IMG/VR virus record: IMGVR_UViG_3300023292_000047
Coordinates: 1 to 26,595 of that record
Strand: one strand, 5' to 3'
Origin: a virus
Length of the DNA: 26,595 nt
Under the pieces are notes generated by a model, which saw only the letters and a program-made list of their open reading frames with translations, was not told the origin of the DNA and made no database searches. Positions 7,410 through 10,005 of the stretch are shown here, in pieces (position 1 is the stretch's first letter; each line of letters begins with the position of its first letter). A program made the position numbers and the translations under genes.

Positions 7410-8327
7410 ATGACACAGATACCTAACCCGGCAAACTTACCAACACCAGAGCCTACACCTACACCAGAGCCTACACCTACACCGGAGCCTACACCTACAC
7501 CTACACCAACACCAGCTCCCGCGCCAGTTACGCCGCCCGTGGACACAAAACTTTTTGGCGCTTTAATACCCGAAGAGTTTAAAGACCGCCCATACCTCAA
7601 AGACATATCGGGCATGGAAGTGAATGATAAATCTTATGAGGAGTTATTTAAGAAGCTCGACGGAGCGCAGAAACTTATTGGCAGGAAAGCCATGCCGGAC
7701 GCCACTTCCACACCAGAGGAATGGCAAGAATATTACACTAAAGTTCGACCCGAAACTGCGGACTTATACGAGCTCAATGTCCCCGAGGGCGAAACGGCGA
7801 ATGAGGAAGTGGTGAAGGGAGTAAAAGACATATTCCACAAAGCGGGTTTGACAAAAGAGCAAGCCTCCACAGTGCATGATGAGTTCAACACTCTCATGAA
7901 AAAACAAGCTGAGGTGTTTAACGCCAAAGGGGTGGAGCAAGATAAGGCTTTTGAAGAGTTGACAAAAAATACTTTTGGCGAAGAAGCAGAAGCTAAGATG
8001 GCAACTGCTAAAACAATGCTAACCGAATTGGCGCCAGAGAATGTGAAACCGTTCATAGCCAAATTGGACAATTCAAGTCTTGTAGTCTTGACGGGGATCC
8101 TTAATTCGGTCCACGATAAATATGGGGTGGAAGGGAAGAAGCTAGGCGGAGACGGAACACCGACTGGTGGAAGTACCGTCCCGGAATTAATATCCAAAGG
8201 TCAAGAATTAATGCTGACTAAAGAGTACACTGATGGATTCCATCCCCAGCATGACGCAAGAGTTGCGGAAGTCAATGCGCTCTATAAAAGAATAGGAGCA
8301 TTGCAGACCGCAGCAAAAAAGGCTTGA
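7410..8327 (+). CDS. Capsid scaffolding/assembly protein
   Basis: 305 aa, placed directly before the major capsid gene, the standard position of the scaffold that shapes the prohead and then leaves. The N-terminus (residues about 7-45) is a Pro/Thr/Glu tandem repeat (PEPTPT units), likely extended and disordered. The rest is predominantly helical and acidic with a coiled-coil region (about residues 130-200) and a lysine-containing C-terminal helix ending AAKKA, as is usual for the capsid-binding end. There are no membrane or catalytic motifs. The promoter for the capsid gene begins inside its stop codon region (8324). Confidence 0.8.
   Translation: MTQIPNPANLPTPEPTPTPEPTPTPEPTPTPTPTPAPAPVTPPVDTKLFGALIPEEFKDRPYLKDISGMEVNDKSYEELFKKLDGAQKLIGRKAMPDATSTPEEWQEYYTKVRPETADLYELNVPEGETANEEVVKGVKDIFHKAGLTKEQASTVHDEFNTLMKKQAEVFNAKGVEQDKAFEELTKNTFGEEAEAKMATAKTMLTELAPENVKPFIAKLDNSSLVVLTGILNSVHDKYGVEGKKLGGDGTPTGGSTVPELISKGQELMLTKEYTDGFHPQHDARVAEVNALYKRIGALQTAAKKA
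7449..7502 (+). repeat. 18-bp tandem repeat encoding PEPTPT units
   Basis: Three copies of an 18-bp unit beginning GAGCCTACACCTACACC lie at 7449, 7467 and 7485, then decay into further ACACCT/ACACCA words to about 7520. Copy number is likely to change by slippage in multiples of 6 or 18 bp without breaking the frame of the scaffold gene. Confidence 0.8.
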
Positions 8328-8352
8328 CAGGATTGAAAATCTATGTTAAACT
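8324..8352 (+). promoter_or_regulatory. Major capsid gene promoter, copy of the one at 1613
   Basis: TTGACA (8324-8329), 17-bp spacer, TAAACT (8347-8352), matching the promoter at 1613-1641 at 28 of 29 positions. It overlaps the stop codon of the scaffold gene, and the predicted start of transcription near 8359 gives a 5' leader of about 235 nt before the capsid ATG at 8595. It would raise capsid mRNA above that of the upstream genes. Confidence 0.8.
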
Positions 8353-8368
8353 TTTGACGTAGCGTAAA

Positions 8369-8510
8369 AACAGTGTGGGGCTTCGGCCCCGCACAATAAG
8401 GAGAGTTGTGGATACGTTTAATTATTAAACCCCACTGTTAGTGATTAAATCACTCGCGTCCGCGCGATAACAGGAAGGGACACCCGGTCAACATGATAGG
8501 ATACTGTCTC
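8369..8510 (+). ncRNA. Highly structured 5' leader RNA of the capsid mRNA (candidate)
   Basis: A chain of perfect or near-perfect stems fills this stretch. 8373-8381 pairs with 8386-8394 (GTGTGGGGC, UUCG tetraloop, GCCCCGCAC, one G-U). 8416-8430 is GTTTAATTATTAAAC. 8440-8445 pairs with 8449-8454 (AGTGAT/ATCACT). 8454-8458 pairs with 8463-8467 (TCGCG/CGCGA). 8477-8482 pairs with 8505-8510 (one G-U). Two outer closings are possible: AACAGTG (8369-8375) with CACTGTT (8433-8439), enclosing the first two hairpins, or GTTA (8437-8440) with TAAC (8468-8471), enclosing the third and fourth. They share bases, so they could be alternative states. The UUCG hairpin lacks a U-tract, so it is not a normal terminator. 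There is no tRNA or known riboswitch signature that I recognise. Confidence 0.6.
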
Positions 8511-8576
8511 TGAAATTAAAGCACTTTAAAGCACTTTAAAGCACTTTATAGTGTTGTAGTTAGAAGTTTAATTTCA
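8511..8576 (+). repeat. 10-bp inverted repeat enclosing three phased 10-bp repeats
   Basis: TGAAATTAAA (8511-8520) and TTTAATTTCA (8567-8576) are exact reverse complements. Between them lie GCACTTTAAA twice and GCACTTTATA once (8521-8550), in tandem with a 10-bp period. Each unit junction contains TAAAGCACTTTA, a partial dyad. In RNA the outer arms would form a long stem just before the Shine-Dalgarno at 8583; in DNA the repeats could be an operator array on one helix face. Confidence 0.65.
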
Positions 8577-8594
8577 TTGCACAGGAGAAATATT

Positions 8595-9482
8595 ATGGCC
8601 GGAGAAACAATTGATCAAGCGTTAGTAACGCAGTTTTCAAGCAACGTACACAACGCAGCCCAGCAAACAAAAGCAAGGTTGCGCTCACACGTCGAGATTA
8701 TACCCATCACGGGAGATAAATTCGCGTATGACGGTTTAGGCTCTGTGGAGGCCTCAGAACAGTTTGGAAGACATGAAGCGGTTATATTCTCAGACGCTAA
8801 CCACACCAGACGTAAAATAAGCAGACGCAGATTTACTTTAACACTTCCGATTGACGCTTCTGATGTTAGGGGCGCCCTTATCAGTCCTTCAAGCCAATAC
8901 GCTCAAGTTTGTGTCAGAGCCATGGAAAGAGTATTTGACAGAGTCGTTATCGAGTCTATGTTTGTTCCTGTTTACACCGGGAGAGACATGGATACTGTAG
9001 TCGCATTCGCCACCGACGGTGGATCCACTGTTGATGCAACTGCTGGTCTCACGTATGAAAAATTACTTGAGGTTGGGCAGAACTTCATCGACAAAGAAGT
9101 TGGAACTGAACTCCCTGAAGATTTAGTTATGGGTATTTCAGGTGACGAGCATACTGCGCTCATGCAAGAAAATGAGTTAACCAATGGCGATTTCACAAAA
9201 CAGTATGTCGTCGAGAAAGGCAAGATAGCACAAGCCGCTGGGATTGGCTTGATACTTTTTGCCGGAGCCATTGACCATCCGTTGCTCAGTGTGACAGCTG
9301 GAACAAGAGATTGCTTCGCTATGTCCACCAGAGGAATGGCGGTTGGTATGAGCAAAGAAATGGGCCTCAAGATCGAAGACCGCTCTGACTTGGTTGAAAC
9401 AACTCAGGTCCAGATAATATTCGAACTTGGCGCCGTAAGAACCGAAGGCGTTCTTGTCCAAAAAGTACAAACCACTGACTAA
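8595..9482 (+). CDS. Major capsid protein
   Basis: 295 aa from the ATG at 8595, chosen because AGGAG (8583-8587) is 7 nt upstream; an in-frame TTG at 8577 has no such site. The sequence follows the pattern of the T7-like environmental capsid family: an N-terminal helix, the RRRFTLTLPIDASDVRGALISP strand-turn (split at about residues 77-98), a DRVVIESMFVPVYTG segment, a SGDEHTALMQENELTNGDF loop and a C-terminal strand FELGAVRTEGVLVQKV. It would build the icosahedral shell on the scaffold encoded just upstream. It has its own promoter (8324) and structured leader, so it is probably the most strongly expressed gene here. A 6-bp hairpin (9473-9488) straddles its stop codon. Confidence 0.9.
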   Translation: MAGETIDQALVTQFSSNVHNAAQQTKARLRSHVEIIPITGDKFAYDGLGSVEASEQFGRHEAVIFSDANHTRRKISRRRFTLTLPIDASDVRGALISPSSQYAQVCVRAMERVFDRVVIESMFVPVYTGRDMDTVVAFATDGGSTVDATAGLTYEKLLEVGQNFIDKEVGTELPEDLVMGISGDEHTALMQENELTNGDFTKQYVVEKGKIAQAAGIGLILFAGAIDHPLLSVTAGTRDCFAMSTRGMAVGMSKEMGLKIEDRSDLVETTQVQIIFELGAVRTEGVLVQKVQTTD

Positions 9483-9516: not shown

Positions 9517-10005
9517 ATGGCTGTAGTGAACGAATGGATTAACACTGAAGTAGAAGCGGGTAAATTGGGCAACCCTTCCAAGATAATGCCGGGTAGAGTA
9601 TTTGCATTCGCGGCTACTTTCGAGATAGCCGCAGCGGATAGTGACGGCTCGACGTACAAGATCGCCAACCTGAAATCGAACATGGTCCCCAAGGAAATCA
9701 AGCTTAACTGTGACGCATTGACCGGTTCCACGGACTGGGATCTTGGTTTCTATACCGAAGCAGGTATTGAGGTCGATGAGAATATTCTCATGGACGCCAC
9801 AGACATTAGCACAGGGTACGCAATTGGCTCTGAAATCAACTGTTTGTCAGCCCTTGCCATTGCCAACATAGGTAAAAAAATATGGGAATTGCTCGGCAAA
9901 ACCGTCGCCGATAAAGACGACGCTTATGTTTTGACCTTAACCGGCCAGACCATTGGGTCGGCTGCTGGGACCATATCACTTCGCGGTGAATTTATCCAAG
10001 GATAA
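9517..10005 (+). CDS. Probable capsid decoration/stabilisation protein
   Basis: 162 aa, directly after the capsid gene with the same AGGAGAA-type ribosome-binding site (ACAGGAGAACAATATGG against ACAGGAGAAATATTATGG). It is rich in beta-prone, small and acidic residues, with no membrane span or catalytic motif. The order scaffold, capsid, small beta-rich protein matches phages such as BPP-1 in which the latter gene encodes a cementing protein on the capsid surface. The assignment rests mainly on position and composition; a minor head or head-completion protein is the main alternative. Confidence 0.6.
   Translation: MAVVNEWINTEVEAGKLGNPSKIMPGRVFAFAATFEIAAADSDGSTYKIANLKSNMVPKEIKLNCDALTGSTDWDLGFYTEAGIEVDENILMDATDISTGYAIGSEINCLSALAIANIGKKIWELLGKTVADKDDAYVLTLTGQTIGSAAGTISLRGEFIQG

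Follow-up and report, generated by a model that had tools for sequence, protein, structure and literature searches.

The window analyzed here, i.e., the whole 26,595-nt stretch of IMG/VR virus record IMGVR_UViG_3300023292_000047, carries genes for a terminase, a portal, a scaffold-like protein, the major capsid protein, and a tail tube, in that order. As the original prediction had proposed, an untranslated leader of ~235 nt separates a promoter from the capsid start, which is an ATG at position 8595 (Table 1), and RNAfold confirmed five or more predicted hairpins in this leader. The predicted energy of positions 8353-8594 was -64.5 kcal/mol, compared with -52.4 ± 4.6 kcal/mol for shuffled sequences (z = -2.6), and none of 200 shuffles equaled it. 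ARAGORN modeling gave no tRNA or tmRNA, and the plus strand of the leader contains no GC hairpin leading into a U run, the sole such site lying on the minus strand (8390-8377). This agrees with the original prediction that the leader is neither a tRNA nor a classical terminator. Nor did the leader match a known riboswitch, as no Rfam 15 family reached the gathering threshold in the window or in 20 related loci (best chance match, E of about 0.5). In five related loci (L022, L024, L025, L029, and L034), the capsid gene seems to form a transcription unit of its own, given that a terminator-like GC hairpin, trailed by T-rich sequence, separates the capsid promoter from the scaffold gene. The gene that follows it in the window (9517-10005) encodes a 162-aa protein that is conserved in relatives (38% identity between the window and MW202485) and has no PHROG or Pfam match; it is perhaps a head decoration protein.

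Table 1. Features of the capsid leader and capsid gene in the window
Feature	Position	Strand	Description
Sigma70-like promoter, capsid transcription unit	8324..8352	+	TTGACA-17-TAAACT
9-bp UUCG hairpin	8373..8394	+	Lineage-specific, outside the conserved core; absent in divergent relatives
Motif 1	8408..8435	+	A1 GUGG (8408-8411)/CCAC (8432-8435); 4x1 loop AUAC (8412-8415)/C (8431); hairpin A2 8416-8430
Stem P	8436..8472	+	UGUUA (8436-8440)/UAACA (8468-8472); encloses hairpins B (8441-8453) and C (8454-8467)
Motif 2	8476..8511	+	Outer stem AGGGACA (8476-8482)/UGUCUCU (8505-8511); 1x4 loop C (8483)/AUAC (8501-8504); inner hairpin 8484-8500
Helix R	8512..8575	+	GAAAUUAAA (8512-8520)/UUUAAUUUC (8567-8575); adjoins motif 2, ends 7 nt before the Shine-Dalgarno
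Shine-Dalgarno, capsid gene	8583..8587	+	AGGAG
Major capsid protein	8595..9482	+	phrog_3437; Pfam PF19821

A BLASTN search against phage records returned no match, owing to fast DNA divergence, and homologues were therefore reached through the capsid protein. IMG/VR gave four loci whose leaders are identical or 96% identical (L001, L003-L005), and the capsid protein led to ~75 more; with cultured phages added, the non-redundant set comprised 60 capsid leaders. Their DNA is largely unalignable, but side-by-side reading uncovered one architecture, consisting of a motif-1 hairpin (A1/A2), a stem P domain with one or two variable hairpins, and a motif-2 hairpin. The carriers include the cultured Vibrio phages VP2, phiVC8, JSF9, K300, and 1.182.O and Alteromonas phage ZP6, plus dozens of uncultivated podoviruses. 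Vibrio breoganii phage 1.182.O, for example, has AAGAG-AUAC-GC..GC-C-CUCUU and CUCC-C-CUCAUGAUGAG-AUAC-GGAG, and the P hairpins are missing from the reduced form seen in VP2, phiVC8, JSF9, and K300. In BPP-1 and epsilon15, which share the capsid gene neighborhood, the space upstream of the capsid gene is just 13 and 10 nt, respectively; among the Pelagibacter phages examined by eye, no such element was recognized. Family phage contigs were also found binned into Elusimicrobia and Bacteroidales metagenome-assembled genomes (L236-L238), which probably reflects binning and is not host evidence.

The conserved RNA core spans positions 8408-8511 of the window, and so structure is indeed present in the region 8353-8594 that had been put forward, but the element is not the whole leader. 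In motif 1, the order is A1, 4 nt, hairpin A2, 1 nt, and A1'; in motif 2, it is outer stem, 1 nt, inner hairpin, 4 nt, and outer stem', so that motif 2 repeats the internal loop of motif 1 but closes it at its other end. Accordingly, the window reads GUGG-AUAC-GUUUAAUUAUUAAAC-C-CCAC for motif 1, CUGUUA...UAACAG for stem P, and AGGGACA-C-CCGGUCAACAUGAUAGG-AUAC-UGUCUCU for motif 2, the inner hairpin of which (8484-8500) contains one G.A mismatch. It thus fits the family definition, with two matching inverted 4x1 loops (AUAC/C twice) and stem P between them. A held-out relative (L236) has GAAG-ACAC-...-C-CUUC, CUGAUA/UAUCAG, and GGGAGCA/UGUUCCC, i.e., compensatory changes relative to the window in every listed stem. 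The assignment of motif 1 is based on compensatory A1 pairs across the clade and on a covariance model match at 8404-8516 that also covers motif 2. RNAalifold placed A1 of the short class in a shifted register, which we rejected because the register is set by compensatory A1 changes in other classes.

Two further details of the original prediction fared differently. The 9-bp UUCG hairpin exists, and of the two outer closings said to share bases, GTTA/TAAC falls within CTGTTA (8435-8440)/TAACAG (8468-8473) of the window and is conserved as stem P. AACAGTG (8369-8375)/CACTGTT (8433-8439) is an addition of the window lineage and, like the UUCG hairpin, was found only in the near-identical L001, L004, and L005, which places both outside the conserved structure; a switch between the two closings is thus unsupported.

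The fold was assessed with a descriptor that requires the two motifs, with at least three of four loop letters agreeing, and takes no account of stem P or of the outer extension of motif 2. The descriptor, which had been adjusted by eye on the first leader set, matched 52 of the 60 leaders, compared with 1 of 600 dinucleotide shuffles and 21 of 2646 other windows of the same loci. It was then fixed and applied unchanged to 45 further non-redundant leaders from a separate capsid clade, collected with the capsid of a ZP6-like contig, where it matched 16 leaders (vs 5 of 900 shuffles); 6 more have the motifs in tandem, as in ZP6 (vs 3 of 900 shuffles), and several others (e.g., L249, L287, and L289) fit by eye below the thresholds.

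Covariation pointed in the same direction. When 15 short leaders were aligned, 92.7% of cells were paired and 11 of 21 pairs showed double changes, with at most 1 of 500 shuffles as good, and in slid controls pairing dropped to 24-47%. For 40 leaders, the corresponding values were 89% and 17 of 23 pairs (0 of 500 shuffles), although this alignment was model-fitted and leans toward the model. For the GC-rich clade, the MAFFT alignment was out of register and did not enter the counts. The covariance model built from the 15 short leaders (R1) recovered leaders outside its set (L024, L025, L051-L053, L057, L060, L068, L077, L087, and L094; E values of 1e-8 to 1e-4), all of these matches sitting at the capsid leader. 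A second model (R2), built from the 40 leaders, none of them from the clade of the window, found its best match in the window at 8404-8516 (22.8 bits; E of 0.0035, by a rough calibration), the next scoring 8.5 bits, and gave no match at E ≤ 1 in 620 kb of unrelated viral contigs. A pattern scan for GCACCC..GGATACTG yielded mostly chance matches, which later served as a negative control. L101, a match of a different pattern scan, scores with the models but lies inside an ORF and was discarded as chance. The two outcomes named beforehand as speaking against a structured RNA, i.e., an absence of covarying pairs and an energy no better than that of shuffles, were both looked for, and neither was found.

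The two internal loops change together. Loop identity is matched between the copies (AUAC/C with AUAC/C, GUAG/U with GUAG/U), and 40 of 58 leaders have an identical loop 4-mer in both motifs, compared with a permutation mean of 9.8 and a maximum of 17. In an unconstrained parse of 53 leaders, the first loop nucleotide and its opposite base were GU/GU in 22, AC/AC in 17, and UC/UC in 5. Given that G.U and A+.C are near-isosteric wobbles, the loop can be read as a wobble-like pair (G.U, A.C, or U.C) plus a 3-nt bulge. We counted 18 loop combinations in the 58 leaders, and on the capsid tree the loop type changed 11 times in motif 1 and 12 times in motif 2. A test of concerted change on independent pairs gave 4:0 in the expected direction (p = 0.125), with too few pairs for significance.

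The position of the element is also shared. The -10 of the relatives' promoters mostly ends 6-16 nt before A1, with a peak at 6-7 nt (about 20 of the 47 leaders with a promoter call), which places A1 at about the predicted +1 and makes the RNA 5'-terminal in many relatives. The window is an exception, with A1 55 nt past the -10 and the lineage-specific UUCG hairpin filling the gap. In each of three complete genomes (MW202485, VP2, and K300), the descriptor found one element, at the capsid leader, apart from weak chance parses, and R1 found a single copy in 9 of 10 further viral contigs, the other (G003) having one weak second match (E of 0.02). Collectively, fold, duplication, covariation, and position define a new family of cis-acting RNAs located at the 5' end of the capsid mRNA, or close to it, in a large podovirus group, and the conserved fold in relatives and the covariance models strongly support the claim that the capsid leader holds a new structured RNA.

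What this RNA does is a matter of graded likelihood, and control of capsid expression is our best guess; packaging, which had also been considered, is an unlikely role for an mRNA leader of a dsDNA phage. Two alternatives draw on position. A leader lying directly after the promoter, near +1 in many relatives, and two-armed with bulges could act as a put-like antiterminator. The nascent RNA, folding on its exit from host RNA polymerase, would bind this elongating enzyme directly, the polymerase being the partner that the loops follow, and transcription of the 17-kb virion operon would then pass over its pause sites and terminators; in HK022, putL (~70 nt, two stem-loops) likewise follows PL closely and needs no dedicated protein for its action (PMC9378689). 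We consider this rather unlikely, since the element is single copy with none before the early genes, fast loop drift would be odd for a conserved RNA polymerase contact, and terminator-like sites downstream in the window (24 vs 18.5 ± 5.0) are not clearly above chance. As a 5'-end stabilizer, the terminal helix and stacked stems would block pyrophosphate removal and RNase E entry, allowing the capsid mRNA to outlast the rest. The capsid is the most demanded product, A1 falls at about +1 in some 20 leaders, and in the window the UUCG hairpin stands near the 5' end instead; any stem would suffice for this purpose, though, leaving stem P and two co-varying 4x1 loops unexplained, and we regard a mere stabilizer as improbable.

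A comparison of two close relatives, L008 and L092, bears on the partner of the RNA. Their capsids and terminases are each 96% identical, their portals 92%, and most neighboring head and tail proteins 82-96%, yet both loops are GUAG/U in one leader and AUAC/C in the other, so that all loop positions are switched; their early regions have almost nothing in common. The confinement of the element to the capsid leader would suit autogenous control, exerted by the capsid protein or a different virion protein, but the L008/L092 switch points away from the capsid protein as the partner and makes such control quite improbable. The pair fits a trans-acting partner whose gene lies in the early region or in the host; the switch may also stem from linked recombination or simply from a difference in host. 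L222 (MW202485) and L228/L229 have head and tail proteins that are mostly 82-96% identical and early regions that are almost entirely different, a natural module swap that should be useful for finding the partner.

Downstream of motif 2, helix R is conserved in only part of the family. Its loop in the window holds a tandem repeat of TTTAAAGCAC in about three copies (8516-8547), with one copy fewer in L003 and L004. In the window, the state with both motifs formed has -40.6 kcal/mol, about 5 kcal/mol above the MFE state (-45.6 kcal/mol), in which the motif-2 3' strand is paired next to the Shine-Dalgarno, although the order of the two states is uncertain because nearest-neighbor rules penalize 4x1 loops. 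In six relatives, the motif-2 3' strand is itself the helix R 5' strand (L022, L031, L033, L034, and L041 by a duplex test, L029 by reading), and the helix R 3' strand covers the Shine-Dalgarno, as in CCUUCGCUA/UAGCGGAGG of L033. Over 56 leaders, Shine-Dalgarno pairing ranked within the top 5% in 14 and within the top 1% in 6. A potential competition between motif 2 and a downstream helix reaching the Shine-Dalgarno is seen in a subset of relatives and is not universal. A small-molecule riboswitch with two aptamer-like loops would account for a compact covarying 5' UTR fold whose downstream helix overlaps the motif-2 stem in part of the family, but it is very improbable, as the gene controlled is a capsid gene rather than a metabolic one and the loops vary as described above, while single-ligand aptamer cores are normally near-invariant.

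This phage and its relatives probably share an RNA switch or landing pad that sets the amount of capsid protein, and we infer the partner, direction, and level of control as follows. Our leading reading, held tentatively, is that the element is a bipartite site for one phage- or host-encoded partner that tunes translation or stability of the capsid mRNA, with Shine-Dalgarno masking in one clade. Both internal loops would form the binding site of this partner, for which an early phage protein or an RNA-binding factor of the host is the most likely candidate; its specificity would drift from phage to phage, and its binding would keep the outer stem of motif 2 closed. For the clade around L022-L041, where the motif-2 3' strand may alternatively pair with the Shine-Dalgarno region and so mask it, partner binding would open the ribosome site. 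In the rest of the family, the same complex may set translation or stability of the capsid mRNA without direct Shine-Dalgarno masking. A broader version, which we find somewhat unlikely, is a phage-wide specificity system in which each phage has its own matched loop pair and a cognate partner (an early phage protein or an adapted host factor) that licenses capsid synthesis, loop and partner diversifying by analogy with N/boxB in lambdoid phages.

The family adds a covariation-supported RNA that is absent from Rfam, and searches of openly accessible papers returned no prior description of it. The design of this RNA, with one drifting loop present as an inverted duplicate, is unusual, and the RNA itself thereby points to a coevolving partner that one can look for. 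The family would also show how podoviruses raise capsid output above that of the neighboring scaffold and portal genes, and since cultured Vibrio and Alteromonas phages carry the RNA, the family is testable at once.

Among known systems, riboswitches and ribosomal-protein leaders in Rfam resemble it as 5'-UTR folds with helices that compete for the Shine-Dalgarno, as they may here in part of the family; unlike them, it precedes a phage capsid gene, its loop sequences vary, and it matches no Rfam 15 family. In TAR-type trinucleotide-bulge hairpins and phage translational operators, a short stem with a 3-nt bulge is suited to protein recognition. The capsid-leader RNA has the same short stem and bulge, but in two copies, inverted (or tandem), each beside a G.U or A.C pair. 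The closest known layout is that of HK022 put, also a two-armed RNA, which contains a bulged loop and non-canonical pairs and, in the case of putL, immediately follows a phage promoter (PMC9378689). The likeness is one of place and two-arm form, not of copy number or transcripts: put occurs twice, in the early PL and PR transcripts, and mediates read-through of terminators by way of the zinc-binding domain of RNA polymerase, whereas the present RNA occurs once, in the capsid transcript, and has in addition the P domain and a drifting 4x1 loop in duplicate, with no sequence relation established. The double 4x1-loop capsid leader is thus, as a kind, a cis-acting leader RNA and, as a family, new.
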